Part shown: positions 13,380-20,505 of the stretch, piece by piece
Numbering within the stretch: the first letter of the stretch is position 1
Layout: each line of letters opens with the position of its first letter
DNA from: Rhizobiaceae bacterium
GTDB taxonomy: Bacteria; Pseudomonadota; Alphaproteobacteria; Rhizobiales; Rhizobiaceae
Length of the DNA: 64,000 nucleotides
NCBI GenBank assembly: GCA_027483885.1
Contig: JAIXTO010000124.1
Span: forward strand, 1 to 64,000
Direction of reading: 5' to 3'
Notes under the pieces: model-generated
What the model saw: the letters and a program-made list of their open reading frames with translations, nothing else
The model's database searches: none
What the model was told of the DNA's origin: nothing
Program-made: the position numbers and the translations under genes

Positions 13380-13796
13380 CTTGCGAACCGGAGGACAAAG
13401 GACGAATGAACATGCGCCGGGAACCAGTCGGTGGAGACACCGATTCCCTGACACGCTCAAACGCGCGGTAAGTGGAACAACGCTCTGCCAAGAACGATGA
13501 TCCGGCTTTGTCTGCCATGGATTGGAGGGAGAACCCTACCGCACTTCCGGCAATGATGGTGTGCCTCTTCAGTAACCCCGGCTGTTGGAAAGCCGGGAGA
13601 GAACAAAAAGGCCCGCACCGTCGTTGCTTCAGATGTCCTCGCATTTCCCGGATGGCCGGAATAGCGACTGGAGGGGTTAATTCCAGGTACCTTACCGATG
13701 ACCTCACCAAATAGAGGGTCGGCGGACACCCACGGGCACGTGCGACTTTGGGCTGACCGGGAGATAAGAACATTCGCCTTCATAATCAAGAGATTT
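13380..13796 (-). ncRNA. Candidate speF leader RNA upstream of ornithine decarboxylase
   Basis: The roughly 500-bp region between odc and the divergent LysR gene shows no convincing gene, but the strand reading into odc is rich in stem-loops: a bulged hairpin at 13419-13448 (TCGGTG/CACCGA inside GGGAA/TTCCC), a 7-bp stem CCCGGCT/AGCCGGG at 13577-13597, and TTCCGG/CCGGAA-type pairing near 13647-13660. The speF RNA motif is described upstream of ornithine decarboxylase genes in Alphaproteobacteria and is unusually long, which fits the position and size here. The exact 5' end is unknown. Confidence 0.5.
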
Positions 13797-15506: not shown

Positions 15507-16525
15507 GACGCAGCCTTCCCCTTGCCCTCCTGATGACACTTGGGGCCTTTGCGCTTGCCCATGCGCAATCCCCGCTCGGCGTCGGCTCGGCGGAACCTTC
15601 GTTCAGCACCGGCGGATTTCTCGGCCCCTTCTTCGGTTTCATCAATGCCTACCAGCAGAGTTTTTATCGGGCGCTGACCGGCTCGCTCAAGGCGATGCGG
15701 GAAGATCCGTGGGCGGTGAAGGGACTGGTGACCCTGTCCTTTGCCTATGGTGTCTTTCATGCCGCCGGTCCCGGTCACGGCAAGGCTGTCATCTCCTCCT
15801 ACATGATCGCCAACGAGACCGCACTGAAGCGCGGCATCGCCATTTCGCTCGTCTCGGCGCTGTTGCAGGGGATCGTTGCCATCGGGCTTGTCGCTGCGGC
15901 CTATATCGTTCTGCGCGGCACCGGCATCACCATGACGCGCGCCACGCAGGCGATGGAGGTGGTAAGTTTTGCCATGATCGCCCTGTTCGGCGGCTGGCTT
16001 CTGGCCCGCAAGCTTTATGCGCTGCGCCCGCACCGCTCATCCCTGCCGATCTTTGCCAGCGCAAGTCCAGCCTCGGGTCCGACGGGCCTTTCGTTTCGCG
16101 CAACCGAAGTGGGCCATGATCACGATCAGCTTGCAGCCGGTGACTACTGCATGGATTGCGGCCAGATGCACCTGCCCGATCCGCAGGCCATCGGCGGGCG
16201 CGATTTCAGCCTGCACGAAGCCTGGTCGGCCATCGTTGCCGTTGGCCTTCGCCCCTGTTCCGGCGCCATCCTGGTGATGAGCTTTTCCATCCTCAACGGG
16301 CTTTATCTCGGGGGTGCGCTGTCGGTGCTGTTCATGTCGCTGGGCACCGCGATCACCGTATCACTGCTGGCGTTGATGGCGGTCTCGGCCAAGGACCTGG
16401 CTGTGCGTTTTGCCGGAAAGGGATCGCGCACAGCCGGTCGTATCACCAACGGCATCGAGATCGTCGGGGCGCTGTTCATCCTGCTGATGGGGCTGTCGCT
16501 GCTGGGGGCAGCCCTTCAGGCTTAA
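15500..16525 (+). CDS. NicO/RcnA-type nickel-cobalt transporter
   Basis: A 341-aa membrane protein with about six transmembrane segments. Signature motifs are FHAAGPGHGKAVISSYM, a His/Asp-containing loop (GHDHDQ then DCGQMH) and GLRPCSGAILVM. The NicO family exports (RcnA) or imports nickel and cobalt; pairing with a DUF1007 protein and no urease or hydrogenase genes nearby leaves direction open, with export slightly favoured. A GGAGGTGAC ribosome-binding site sits inside the end of the DUF1007 gene. An N-terminal signal-like segment (LALLMTLGAFALAHAQ) precedes the first true membrane helix. Confidence 0.86.
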   Translation: MLRRSLPLALLMTLGAFALAHAQSPLGVGSAEPSFSTGGFLGPFFGFINAYQQSFYRALTGSLKAMREDPWAVKGLVTLSFAYGVFHAAGPGHGKAVISSYMIANETALKRGIAISLVSALLQGIVAIGLVAAAYIVLRGTGITMTRATQAMEVVSFAMIALFGGWLLARKLYALRPHRSSLPIFASASPASGPTGLSFRATEVGHDHDQLAAGDYCMDCGQMHLPDPQAIGGRDFSLHEAWSAIVAVGLRPCSGAILVMSFSILNGLYLGGALSVLFMSLGTAITVSLLALMAVSAKDLAVRFAGKGSRTAGRITNGIEIVGALFILLMGLSLLGAALQA

Positions 16526-16536
16526 AACTCGAAGCG

Positions 16537-16746
16537 TCAGCGATTGCCGCGGCGCTGATGGCGGGCACGCAGCCAGAAGATCAGGAAGAACGACAGGACG
16601 GCGAGAATGCCAAAGCCTGCCGCCAGCCACGGCGAAAACTGCGCCAGCCACAGGACGATGCTGGGCATGACCAGAAACAGCAGCGTGAAGCCGAAAAAGA
16701 TGATGGCGGCCGCAATGGCCGGTGAGCGTTTCTTGCCGCCGCTCAC
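16537..16746 (-). CDS. Small two-helix membrane protein, unknown function
   Basis: A 69-aa protein with two hydrophobic helices (AIAAAIIFFGFTLLFLVMPSIV and WLAAGFGILAVLSFFLIFWL) flanked by basic ends (SGGKKR and RARHQRRGNR), so both termini are predicted cytoplasmic. The GTG start overlaps the TGA stop of the acetyltransferase gene (GTGA), a hallmark of translational coupling, which supports it as a real gene. I do not recognise the family. Confidence 0.6.
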   Translation of the reverse strand: MSGGKKRSPAIAAAIIFFGFTLLFLVMPSIVLWLAQFSPWLAAGFGILAVLSFFLIFWLRARHQRRGNR

Positions 16747-17438
16747 GCTGCCACCGCCTGAAGCCCGGCGCGAATATCTTCCAGCCGTTCTTTCTGGTGG
16801 CCGTGATCGTCAAAATTCTCCGGCAGCAGCCATGTCTCAAATGCTTTGGAGATAAGCGGCCATTCACCGTCGATCATCGAAAACCAGGCTGTATCGCGGT
16901 TGGCGCCCTTGGACACCATGTGCTGGCGAAACACGCCTTCGAAGGTAAAGCCGTAGCGCGTTGCGGTTTTTTTGCTCGGCTCGTTTTCGTTGTGGCATTT
17001 CCACTCGTAACGACGGTAACCCAGATCCTCGAACACGTGGCGGGCCATCAGGTAATGCGCTTCGGTGGAGAGCGGCGAGCGCTTCATGGCAGCACCATGC
17101 GCCACCGAGCCCACCTCGATCACGCCATTGGCGGGGTCCGGCCGCATATAACTTGCCATGCCCACCACCTCGCCATCCTCCTTGTCGCGAAAGACAAGCG
17201 TGATGAGGTTGCCGGCCTTGTTCATGCCCTCCAGCCAATCGGCAAATTCTTCCGGCGCGCTGTAGAGCTTGTTGGGGAAATAATGGATGAGGTCGTTCAG
17301 CCCCTCGTCGCCACCCAGTGCCTCCCACAGCGTCTGGATATGCACCGCCCGTTCATAGGGCTCGGCAATGACATAATGGCCCTCGAGCCGCACCGGCCGA
17401 GGCGCCGGGCAACCATTGAAATTCTTGAGATCACGCAT
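16743..17438 (-). CDS. GNAT-family acetyltransferase, RimJ/RimL-like
   Basis: A 231-aa acetyltransferase of the RimJ/RimL type, which modify ribosomal protein N-termini or small molecules. Motifs: VRLEGHYVIAEPYERA at the N-terminus, VVGMASYMRPDPANGVIEVGSV, and RYEWKCHNENEPSKKTATRYGFTFEGVFRQHM, the classic substrate/CoA segment. The ATG at 17438 has GAGGGG seven bases upstream; the GTG at 17453 is less likely. The small membrane protein gene follows with overlapping start/stop. Such long (about 230 aa) members are frequent in rhizobia; the substrate is unknown. Confidence 0.84.
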   Translation of the reverse strand: MRDLKNFNGCPAPRPVRLEGHYVIAEPYERAVHIQTLWEALGGDEGLNDLIHYFPNKLYSAPEEFADWLEGMNKAGNLITLVFRDKEDGEVVGMASYMRPDPANGVIEVGSVAHGAAMKRSPLSTEAHYLMARHVFEDLGYRRYEWKCHNENEPSKKTATRYGFTFEGVFRQHMVSKGANRDTAWFSMIDGEWPLISKAFETWLLPENFDDHGHQKERLEDIRAGLQAVAA

Positions 17439-17533
17439 GAAACATCCCCTCACCTGCCAAGAGAATTAAGCGAGGGCGCGCCCAAACGCAATCGCTGCTT
17501 TGCCGCCGGACACGGCAAAACACCGACACCGGA

Positions 17534-18232
17534 TCAGAGCGAAACCTTCGCCGAGGAGACGGTCGCCTCGATATGATCGATCAGCGGATCGGGCAGTTTC
17601 AGCCGGCCGGCGAGAAGATCGAGATAGCCGCGTTCGGCGCGGGTATCGGGGTCGATGGCAAGCCTGGAGGCCGTGTAAATCTCCACCCGCTGTTCTTCGG
17701 TGCGGCCGGCGGCCACCAGCGCGTCGAGATCGATCGGATCGGCGAGTTCCTTGGCAATGAAGGCTTCGGCCTCTGCGCCGAGATCCACGGCATGCACCTT
17801 TTCCATGATGCGCTGGCGCTCGTTCGCATCGATATGGCCATCGGCCTTTGCCGCGGCAATCATCGCGCGCAGCAGGGTCAGCGCAAAATCATTGCTGAGG
17901 CTTGGCGAATCGAGGCTGAAAGGCGAATCGGCCGGCGGCTCGATGACCGGTGCATCGGGGGCGACGCCGACTGGCGCCTTGCCCGACTGATAGTTTCGGT
18001 AGGCGAGATAACCAAGGCCGGCAATCGCTGCGACGCCGCCAACGGCTGCGACATTGCCGGCAAGCTTGCGGCCGGTCTTGGTGCCGAGAAGGGCCGCCGC
18101 CAGCGCGCCGGCCTTCATCGGGTTGTTGCGCGCAAGGTCTGTGACCTGGCCTGCCTTCCCCTGCAAGGTTCCCGAAAGACCGGGAACCTTGGATCCGAGG
18201 AACTGGTCCAGAAGCTTCTTGGCGTCGAACAT
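17534..18232 (-). CDS. DUF533 / TerB-like tellurite-resistance family protein
   Basis: A 232-aa protein (YebE-like). The N-terminal part has small-residue-rich and weakly hydrophobic stretches (AGALAAALLGTKTGRKLAG, VGGVAAIAGLGYLAYRNYQSG), one likely membrane helix. The C-terminal half is a TerB-like helical domain (RAMIAAAKADGHIDANERQRIMEKV, AEAFIAKELADPIDLDALVAA) where the acidic D-G-H-I-D-x-x-E may bind a divalent metal. The role is unknown; the family is often linked to envelope stress. The ATG at 18232 is used; a TTG two codons earlier is unlikely. The ribosome-binding site is buried in a perfect hairpin (18240-18265). Confidence 0.8.
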   Translation of the reverse strand: MFDAKKLLDQFLGSKVPGLSGTLQGKAGQVTDLARNNPMKAGALAAALLGTKTGRKLAGNVAAVGGVAAIAGLGYLAYRNYQSGKAPVGVAPDAPVIEPPADSPFSLDSPSLSNDFALTLLRAMIAAAKADGHIDANERQRIMEKVHAVDLGAEAEAFIAKELADPIDLDALVAAGRTEEQRVEIYTASRLAIDPDTRAERGYLDLLAGRLKLPDPLIDHIEATVSSAKVSL

Positions 18233-18239
18233 AAACAAA

Positions 18240-18265
18240 CTCTCCCTGTTGTGTCACAGGGAGAG
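18240..18265 (-). promoter_or_regulatory. Stem-loop sequestering the ribosome-binding site of the DUF533 gene
   Basis: On the transcript, CTCTCCCTGT pairs perfectly over 10 bp with ACAGGGAGAG around the 6-base loop GACACA. The 3' arm contains the only good Shine-Dalgarno sequence (GGGAGAG) for the ATG seven bases farther on. The structure should hold translation low until opened by heat, a protein or a small RNA. Confidence 0.6.
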
Positions 18266-18306
18266 ATAGGACGCCAAAGTCATTTTACAAACGATAGAGG
18301 GGGTAA

Positions 18307-18945
18307 TCAGCCCTTGAGGGCAGAGGCTTCCGATGCCAATGCCGTGATGCCGGCCCAATCGCCGGCCGCGACCAGTTCCTTTGGCGCAACCCAGGAGCCG
18401 CCGACGCAGACAACGTTGGGCAGCGACAGGTAATCGCGGGCGTTCTTCAGCGAAATGCCGCCGGTCGGGCAGAAAACGGTGCCGGCGAGCGGCGAAGACA
18501 GCGCCTTGAGATAGGCTGCACCGCCGGCCTGTTCGGCGGGAAAGAATTTCAGGACGTCATACCCAGCTTCGCGCAGCGTCATCACTTCGCTGGCGGTGGC
18601 AGCGCCCGGTAGCAGCGGCACGTCGGAATCTTTCGCTGCCGAAAGCACGCCCGGTGCCACGCCCGGGCTGACGATGAACGTCGAGCCGGCCTTGACGGCC
18701 GCATCGAAATCCCGCGCGTTGAGGATGGTGCCGGCACCGACATGGGCGCCTTCGACTTCCGCAGCAACGGCCTTGACCGCATCAAGGGCTGCCGGCGTGC
18801 GCATGGTGATCTCGATCGCCTTCAAGCCGCCGGCGACAAGCGCGCGGGCCAGATGCACGGCAGAGGCCGCATCATCGACGATCAGAACCGGCACGACCGG
18901 TTGCAGCTTCAGGATGGCAAGCAGGGCTTGGCTCTTGGCGTTCAT
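18307..18945 (-). CDS. eda: KDPG/KHG aldolase (Entner-Doudoroff)
   Basis: A 212-aa class-I aldolase that splits 2-keto-3-deoxy-6-phosphogluconate into pyruvate and glyceraldehyde 3-phosphate, the last step of the Entner-Doudoroff route. Motifs: [19 protein letters not shown] with the catalytic Glu, GAGTIL, FIVSPG, and FFPAEQAGG with the Schiff-base Lys just before it (LKFFPAE). GGIS binds phosphate. The ATG at 18945 carries a GGGAGG ribosome-binding site; the longer frame upstream is not conserved-looking. No other ED gene is adjacent; in this group the pathway is the main glucose route. Confidence 0.92.
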
Positions 18946-19115
18946 GAGGAACCTCCCGGACAGGACGGATTGAAACGATTGAAACTCCACGCTGAGATAG
19001 CGCGGGGCAAAGGCAGTGTCGAGAAAAAACGGACCACTGCCAGGCATTCGGCTCTGGTCGCCGCCAAGCCTTTGCAATAGTTTGTATCAGGTTCGTGATG
19101 AAAACGGGAATGGGC

Positions 19116-19613
19116 ATGGCCAAGGAAATCGAACGCAAGTTTCTCGTTTCAAGCGAGGCGTGGCGCGACACTGCAAGCCCCGGCGCATCCTACATGCAGG
19201 CCTATGTGTCCGTTGGTGAAGACCGCAATGTACGGGTGCGGCTGATCGATGGTGAAAGCGCACGCCTCACCATCAAGATCGGCCACGGCATGTTGTCTCG
19301 CAACGAATATGAATACGCCATTCCGGTCGAGGATGCCGAGGAACTGGTGCGCGCCGCCATCGGCACCGTCATCGAAAAGACCCGCTATCTTGTGCCGCAC
19401 GCCGGCTTCACCTGGGAAGTGGACGTGTTCACAGGCTTCTACAGCGGCCTTGTCGTGGCCGAGGTGGAGCTGGAGAGCGAGGCGGAAAGCCCGCCGCTGC
19501 CGTCCTGGATCGGCCGCGAAGTGACCAGAGACCGCCGCTATTCCAACATGGTCCTGGCGACCGAAGACCTGGCCGGGGAGTTGGTGCATGGCATTTCGCA
19601 TTCGGCCATCTGA
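19116..19613 (+). CDS. CYTH-domain triphosphatase-like protein
   Basis: A 165-aa CYTH (triphosphate tunnel metalloenzyme) protein. The hallmark E-x-E-x-K appears as EIERK at residues 4-8, and later strands have charged tunnel residues (RVRLIDGESARLTIKIG, EYEYAIPVEDAEEL, IEKTRYLV, EVDVFTGFYSGLVVAEVELE). Bacterial members hydrolyse inorganic triphosphate. The ATG at 19116 is the family start; ATGs at 19098 and 19110 and a GTG at 19095 are alternatives. Its end overlaps the CHAD gene by 26 bp, a separated version of the E. coli YgiF layout, where the two domains are fused. Confidence 0.88.
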   Translation: MAKEIERKFLVSSEAWRDTASPGASYMQAYVSVGEDRNVRVRLIDGESARLTIKIGHGMLSRNEYEYAIPVEDAEELVRAAIGTVIEKTRYLVPHAGFTWEVDVFTGFYSGLVVAEVELESEAESPPLPSWIGREVTRDRRYSNMVLATEDLAGELVHGISHSAI

Positions 19614-20505
19614 ACCTTTTGCCGCTGAATTTTGCCGGATTGCCGAAAGCCAGTTGCGGCGTGCAATCGAGGTATTGCGCGAACGCCCAGAAGGAGATCA
19701 TCAGGCGATCCATGCGGCGCGCAAACGCTTCAAGCGGCTGCGCGCCCTCTACCGGCTGGTTGAACCGGATGCCAGGGAGTTTCGGCGCACGGAAAACGCC
19801 CGTATCCGCACCGTAGCCCAAAGCCTGTCCGGCGCGCGCGACGCAACAGCCCTTGTCGAAACCGTCGACTATCTGGCCGGCCTTGCCGTATCCGCCGAAG
19901 AGCTTACAGCGCTCGGCTTTGCTTCCAGCGCGCTGATTGAACGACGCGACCGGATCGCCTCGACACAAGGCGACCTTGCAGACACGATCGAGACAGCGAT
20001 CGCCGCCTGTGAAGATGCGGTGGACGCCCTTCACGCGCTGAACCTGCCGCGCGGCAATGCACGCACGGCACGACGTGTCATCAAGGCCTTTCGCAAACAG
20101 GGTCTGAAGGCGGCCGCAGCACTTGCCACCTGCAATGAAGACCATTCGGCCGAAGCCTTCCATGACCTGCGCAAATGCGGGCAGACCAGCTGGATGTACC
20201 TGACGCTGTTTTCCGACCTCTGGCCATCCGCCATGGCCGCCCAGAAGCGCGAGACAAAACAATTGGTCGACCTGCTCGGCCATGAGCATGATCTGAGCGT
20301 GCTGACGCAGACGATCAACGAGAGCCCGGAACTGTTTGGTGACAGCGATACACTGGCGCTTCTGATCGGCGCCATCATCACGCGCCAGCAGGCAATCCGC
20401 GCCGAAGCGCTGTCCCTTGCCGCGGTCGTCTTTCCAGACCAGCCCAAACGCGAAGCCCGCATCATTGGCAGGCTTTGGCTGGAAGCGGCGGACGCGCTGT
20501 CGTGA
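19588..20505 (+). CDS. CHAD-domain (conserved histidine alpha-helical) polyphosphate-binding protein
   Basis: A 305-aa helical protein. Conserved His/basic motifs are AIHAARKRFKRLRALYRLV near the N-terminus and AFHDLRKCGQTSWMYLTLF in the second half, with LGHEHDLSVL further on. CHAD domains bind polyphosphate granules through their basic pore. It is translationally coupled to the upstream CYTH gene by a 26-bp overlap, so the two probably act together in polyphosphate or triphosphate turnover. The start at 19588 is the only one placed before the first helix. Confidence 0.88.
   Translation: MAFRIRPSEPFAAEFCRIAESQLRRAIEVLRERPEGDHQAIHAARKRFKRLRALYRLVEPDAREFRRTENARIRTVAQSLSGARDATALVETVDYLAGLAVSAEELTALGFASSALIERRDRIASTQGDLADTIETAIAACEDAVDALHALNLPRGNARTARRVIKAFRKQGLKAAAALATCNEDHSAEAFHDLRKCGQTSWMYLTLFSDLWPSAMAAQKRETKQLVDLLGHEHDLSVLTQTINESPELFGDSDTLALLIGAIITRQQAIRAEALSLAAVVFPDQPKREARIIGRLWLEAADALS

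Follow-up and report, generated by a model that had tools for sequence, protein, structure and literature searches.

A hairpin spanning the predicted promoter and Shine-Dalgarno sequence of a rhizobial DUF533 gene as a probable insulator against read-through translation

Introduction

In RNA thermometers of the ROSE type, a stem close to the ATG takes up the Shine-Dalgarno (SD) sequence. A different arrangement occurs in the leaders of insertion-sequence transposases such as IS10, where an inverted repeat leaves read-through RNA poorly translated and the gene's own transcript starts inside the repeat. Further related systems are found in a phage and in a spore former. Long early transcripts of phage T4 bury the ribosome-binding site of gene e (lysozyme) in a helix, and late promoters just upstream yield an mRNA that lacks the 5' strand and is well translated, the effect being given as 100-fold in the available part of a review (PMC3014915). 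For sigG (spoIIIG) of Bacillus subtilis, a hairpin that cannot form from PsigG is proposed to block translation of read-through from the spoIIG operon, according to the accessible portion of the source (PMC5942855). A warning case is provided by pvuIIR, where breaking predicted hairpins over the site had no significant effect, as stated in the part of the report at hand (PMC2997769), and the available text of a further article (PMC8450116) yielded no case of read-through.

In compact bacterial genomes, promoters lie directly behind upstream genes, and insulation from neighbour RNA is usually credited to terminators. Here we analyze a window of 64,000 nucleotides from a Rhizobiaceae bacterium (GCA_027483885.1, contig JAIXTO010000124.1), in which the SD of a DUF533 gene is enclosed in a perfect hairpin just behind the neighbouring eda gene, and compare this locus to its relatives and to the systems above.

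Results

The DUF533 gene and its hairpin

The features of the locus are collected in Table 1. The DUF533 gene was detected in all 57 genomes of the genus and in 238 of the 297 sampled in the family (E up to 0.001), the closest named relative among the matches listed being Neorhizobium galegae DS1499 with 96% protein identity. We take YebE of Escherichia coli to be a DUF533 protein as well. As the accessible part of one study describes yebE as CpxR-regulated (PMC6226299), a preliminary description of the locus erred for the family in stating that DUF533/TerB-like proteins are without known expression control.

Table 1. Features of the DUF533 locus in the window; positions count from the first base of the window
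Feature	Position	Strand	Remarks
DUF533 gene, 232 aa	17534..18232	minus	PF04391, E 1.1e-55
T-rich TTTGTTT 3' of hairpin	18233..18239	minus	terminator-like in the window, weaker in L003; absent in L007-L013
SD GGGAGAG within hairpin 3' arm	18246..18240	minus	7 nt 5' of ATG
Perfect inverted repeat, 10-bp stem, 6-nt loop	5' arm 18265..18256, loop 18255..18250, 3' arm 18249..18240	minus	
Predicted transcription start zone, -1..+3	18254..18257	minus	+1 = 18256; arm/loop junction; inferred from purine step
Predicted -10 element CTATCT	18264..18269	minus	last two bases = first two of hairpin 5' arm
Predicted -35 element TTTGTA	18286..18291	minus	16 nt before CTATCT
eda (KDPG/KHG aldolase), upstream same-strand gene	18307..18945	minus	PF01081

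Read on the minus strand, 18265..18240 is CTCTCCCTGT-GACACA-ACAGGGAGAG, followed by TTTGTTT and the ATG (18232..18230), which agrees exactly with the earlier account of a perfect 10-bp stem, a 6-base loop and a GGGAGAG in the 3' arm seven bases before the ATG. The 107-nt hairpin region folds with -31.8 kcal/mol (z -3.2), a value equalled by none of 200 shuffles, and the hairpin pattern, at up to three mismatches, has a single site in the window and is present in none of 100 shuffled windows. Among crudely called genes, with starts picked by rule in a list that evidently misses DUF533 both in the window and in G008, no SD tetramer lay inside a perfect stem of at least 10 bp (0/349 SD-tetramer genes, 864 kb), and a perfect repeat of at least 10 bp touched the SD zone in 4 of 679 (window and two relatives). 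The SD-covering hairpin is hence confirmed and exceeds chance. The 107-nt fold adds an outer stem of TTGGCGTC with GACGCCAA, which is missing from the closest relative, L003, and was dropped as probably due to chance. A genome-wide repeat element was ruled out, as the 5.5-Mb draft genome contains the inner 22 bp just once at the same loop length and up to two mismatches.

Elsewhere on the minus strand of the window, at 13448-13753, an Rfam ar45 sRNA (13607-13753, 160.4 bits) adjoins a speF leader (13448-13598, 113.1 bits).

A conserved promoter-like sequence places the predicted start at the arm/loop junction

The leaders share a promoter-like sequence. In 112 of the 115 distinct leaders, a -10 element resembling CTAT[CGT]T precedes the ATG by 18-50 nt. 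The search pattern fixes positions -12 to -10 and -8 (bar rare variants), the 100% of which is no evidence, and it accepts only C or T at -13, with a preference for C at -14, so that the C's at -13 (95%) and -14 (98%) are partly a product of the search. Outside the pattern used for lining up the leaders lie the T's at -35 (96%) and -34 (100%), as well as a purine step, with purine shares of 0.27 at -1, 0.73 at +1 and 0.78 at +2. The same step is present in the 14 weak-stem clusters (0.21 at -1, 0.86 at +1), of which 12 keep a TTG near -35; thus, the hairpin is not its source. Rhizobial transcripts usually begin with a purine: the available parts of two studies give, for the first base, 47.9% A and 23.6% G for Sinorhizobium meliloti (PMC3616915) and 92.3% purine for agrobacteria (PMC10469942).

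In the window, the hairpin's 5' arm corresponds to -9..+1 of the predicted promoter. Since the arm begins within the -10 element and reaches no further than the predicted start, the gene's own mRNA should lack it. We infer from the sequence that this transcript should begin at the arm/loop junction, with the SD free.

Predicted accessibility of the SD

All folding energies are predictions for isolated RNA. On this basis, opening the SD in the window costs 2.0 kcal/mol in the own transcript versus 17.1 in read-through RNA, and opening the region from the SD through the AUG 3.0-4.1 versus 20.4 kcal/mol. Congruently, the mean unpaired probability of the SD at 37 °C is predicted as 0.56-0.63 in RNA starting at -1..+3 and as 0.001 in read-through RNA. 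Between 20 and 42 °C the SD is predicted to stay closed in read-through RNA (0.000-0.001) and to reach 0.001-0.007 in RNA starting at the first stem base, making a thermometer unlikely even with both arms in the RNA. The SD is thus predicted to be paired in upstream-initiated RNA, as in T4 gene e and sigG, and not to open in the physiological range.

These predictions bear on the idea that the hairpin is part of the own mRNA and serves as a translational switch, opened by temperature, a protein or an sRNA. The preliminary description had favoured such control, and sequestration of the SD indeed stands, by a genuine stem that shows some coordinated changes among relatives. A switch in the own mRNA fits poorly, however, as the 5' arm falls on -9..+1 of the predicted promoter, and the suggested thermometer lacks any predicted melting at 20-42 °C. 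Moreover, the SD partners vary between lineages, and an Rfam search of 16500-20500 at E up to 1 returned no match and hence no known RNA family. Taken together, we regard a switch in the own mRNA as unlikely.

SD burial across the family

Next, 162 loci (L002-L163) were considered. The gene start was not found in two (L151, L159), and the remaining 160 gave the 115 distinct leaders, which fall into 39 clusters at 75% identity, each represented by one leader; L152-L154, with the -10 further upstream, were excluded and checked apart, the read-through cost exceeding the own cost by about 3 kcal/mol in each. Across the 39 clusters, the predicted cost of freeing the SD hexamer is 2.50 kcal/mol for the own transcript, as against 8.63 kcal/mol for read-through RNA. 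The latter compares with 4.31 upon shuffling of the upstream 73 bases and with 6.47 when only the seven discriminator bases are shuffled (Wilcoxon p 1e-10 and 3e-6, respectively, both optimistic as the clusters are related). The read-through cost exceeds the own cost in 38 of 39 clusters, and in 26 of 39 the native sequence is matched by no more than 5% of its 40 shuffles (22 of 35 once L002, L004, L007 and L009, the window clade, are set aside). In the other 13 of the 39, more than 5% are as strong, with little or no effect (20-62%) in L155, L095, L097, L021, L029, L044, L130, L136 and L158; in L155 the read-through cost (4.1) is even below the own cost (4.9). Furthermore, pairing of the 5' segments is stronger to the native SD than to SDs taken from other clusters (-11.06 versus -9.03, sd 0.33, 0/200).

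For a rough comparison, 200 of 253 eligible background genes were run, cut at -24 by rule and not at real starts: the read-through cost is 4.17 versus 4.09 kcal/mol for shuffled sequence, the native sequence adding 0.08, and none of the 200 reaches 15. The gain over the short form is at least 10 kcal/mol in 2 of 200 and at least 5 in 4.5%. Aggregated, the computations show that read-through RNA buries the SD in excess throughout the family.

Could the excess be neutral, with the promoter's TATCTCC a chance complement of the GGAGATA that surrounds the SD, and such repeats lengthened now and then by template-switch mutation? An ATCTCC/GGAGAT match of 6-8 bp is indeed widespread, and a two-base insertion in both arms, which sets L009-L012 apart from L008, could be a single templated event. 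The excess nevertheless persists with the -10 held fixed, as shuffling of the discriminator shows, clusters relying on other segments also close the SD, and the 200 other genes lack such a trend, leaving a neutral origin quite improbable.

Pairing partners and stem changes among relatives

In read-through RNA, about 5.1 of 5.2 paired bases of the SD hexamer have their partner upstream of the predicted start, chiefly in -36..-1. The mean number of partners per cluster is 2.28 in -7..-1, 1.78 in -13..-8, 0.79 in -36..-14 and 0.29 above, compared to 0.05 in the transcribed part of the leader and a further 0.05 in the coding sequence; the largest shares within the own transcript are those of L136 (1.0, leader) and L155 (0.8, coding). 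The partner is the -10/discriminator in most clusters and mainly -36..-14 in L056, L128, L149 and L158. It lies mainly above -36 in L163, L105 uses both of the latter regions, and L130 and L048 reach partly further up.

Such turnover of partners with the SD still closed accords with selection to keep the SD shut in upstream-initiated RNA and sits poorly with a fixed operator. A palindrome that serves as DNA operator for a repressor over the -10 and start region would account for the perfect symmetry from -9 to the SD and for a core, TCTCC..GGAGA, common to several lineages. Half-site distance and arm sequence differ between species, however, so that spacing is not constant, the stretches that bury the SD in L105, L149 and L163 are quite different, and the genome holds one site at this spacing. 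We consider an operator highly improbable.

Compensatory change and loss of the hairpin in close relatives had been put forward as comparisons. The stem persists in the near clade, with a T-A pair at the tip in L007 where L008 has G-C, besides the coordinated insertion in L009-L012, and pairing exceeds chance. In the sister clade L004-L006 the perfect form is lost despite a short gap to eda (27 nt in L004), and in L004 the SD is predicted to be still closed, by other pairing. Covariation was assessed on 26 Agrobacterium leaders (19 distinct; 29 were extracted, and L132, L212 and L224 omitted). Paired cells amount to 79.7% versus 74.7% upon shuffling, with a score of 0.150 versus 0.068 (0/500), the structure being taken from row L204, itself one of the aligned leaders, which favours it. 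Pairs changed on both sides number 4 versus 3.5 (237/500) and further pair types 10 versus 8.9 (159/500). The covariation support from Agrobacterium is only moderate. A MAFFT alignment of 14 near-clade or similar leaders assigned the various stems to separate columns and was left out of account.

Separately, a 14-bp perfect palindrome, CTATCTCCTGCTGA...TCAGCAGGAGATAG, covers the whole -10 element and the SD in Neorhizobium xiangyangii (L071:1465-1498).

The eda neighbour and termination

The eda stop codon lies 37 nt 5' of the DUF533 -10 element, and eda is the likely source of the putative read-through RNA into DUF533. A same-strand upstream eda was found for 32 of the 39 leader clusters, one via a cluster mate. 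It was not found upstream in L045, L048 and L121 (781, 750 and 175 upstream bases searched), nor within 1,500 bases upstream in the Brucella/Ochrobactrum-type clusters L095, L097, L125 and L144. As L125 and L144 show SD burial with no eda upstream, eda cannot be the general reason, and insulation, if at work, would in some cases be directed against another neighbour.

The proximity of eda raises the prospect that the hairpin is mainly its intrinsic terminator, placed in the only gap available. With 10 pairs (6 G-C) followed by TTTGTTTATG, the window indeed has a GC-rich stem with a T-run behind a short eda gap, and TTTTG follows the stem in some Agrobacterium leaders. On the other hand, L007 and L009 keep 11-bp stems and the stems of L007-L013 lack the T-run, L022 has only TTT, a pattern scan of 3 kb gave 2 terminator-like sites versus 3.0 expected by chance, and termination needs no SD within the stem. 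A role mainly in eda termination is accordingly fairly unlikely.

The mean stem energy is -16.1 in the 7 clusters with eda less than 45 nt before the -10 and -10.0 in 25 clusters (p 0.003, for a cut-off picked after the data were seen and among related species), and across all gaps stem strength shows no correlation with the upstream gap (Spearman 0.21, p 0.24). A tie between stem strength and the absence of an upstream terminator-like hairpin was also considered and rejected, for want of correlation (0.17, p 0.35); many Agrobacterium leaders carry an upstream hairpin and the SD stem together. In L024, L027, L028 and L034, a strong GCGGGAAAA-TTG-TTTTCCCGC hairpin followed by T's is found 5' of the -10, overlapping the DUF533 -35 region, and is likely the eda terminator.

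Similar pairing at other genes

At L184:10173 (upstream 110 nt), the SD of another gene also pairs strongly with upstream sequence, at 0.1 kcal/mol in the own and 13.7 in the read-through form; this gene, acyl-CoA synthetase-like by protein reading, is a candidate for the same design. At L195:19821 and L198:8858, the SD becomes closed on adding RNA beyond -24 (3.3 to 14.6 and 3.1 to 12.2 kcal/mol), the genes being, again by protein reading, short-chain dehydrogenase-like and ABC substrate-binding-like, respectively.

Discussion

Our analysis suggests that the hairpin probably is an RNA insulator, similar to those of phage T4 gene e and B. subtilis sigG, with the own mRNA translated and read-through mRNA silent. 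The inverted repeat would span both the promoter of DUF533 and its SD. Transcription from the own promoter would begin at the tip of the 5' arm, yielding an mRNA with a leader of about 24 nt and an open SD. Putative read-through transcripts from eda would instead hold both arms and form the hairpin, hiding the SD and leaving DUF533 untranslated, and in the window species the T-rich tail may also terminate some of them. The net benefit would be a DUF533 output that tracks its own promoter and not eda transcription.

More tentatively, the comparison across Rhizobiaceae and neighbours raises the possibility, to which we give somewhat less than even weight, of long-term selection for DUF533 being untranslatable from read-through RNA, with closing of the SD conserved and the pairing segment replaced several times (discriminator/-10, spacer, -35 or above).

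On this reading, promoter DNA would double as an anti-SD carried only by foreign transcripts, possibly a general design for genes starting just downstream of a same-strand neighbour. Because only RNA from further up contains the promoter sequence, the promoter may itself be the silencer. If so, any genome could be searched by a simple rule, namely an SD able to pair with that portion of its promoter which is not transcribed. It would also warn that an SD-covering hairpin alone does not denote a riboswitch or a thermometer; the transcription start decides.

How does the locus then compare to known systems? Unlike the ROSE type, the DUF533 stem is perfect and stable, with no predicted opening by 42 °C, and its 5' arm is probably absent from the own mRNA. 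IS10-type leaders protect a mobile element, whereas DUF533 is an ordinary gene. By analogy, the DUF533 leader anatomy would, with moderate confidence, work like those of T4 gene e and sigG, as far as the available parts of the sources on these describe them. In gene e, as predicted for DUF533, upstream-initiated RNA hides the SD; a proximal promoter frees it in gene e, as the promoter-like sequence of DUF533 may do. Gene e, however, serves the early/late timing of a phage, while DUF533 lies on a bacterial chromosome and its predicted promoter is of the housekeeping type. With sigG, DUF533 shares a hairpin that is present, here by prediction, only in read-through RNA. The sigG hairpin has 20+ bp and belongs to a sporulation sigma-factor gene, as opposed to 10 bp at a DUF533 gene with eda upstream, and a second small hairpin damps translation of the own sigG mRNA, whereas the own transcript of DUF533 is predicted to be mostly open, with the SD unpaired at about 0.6.
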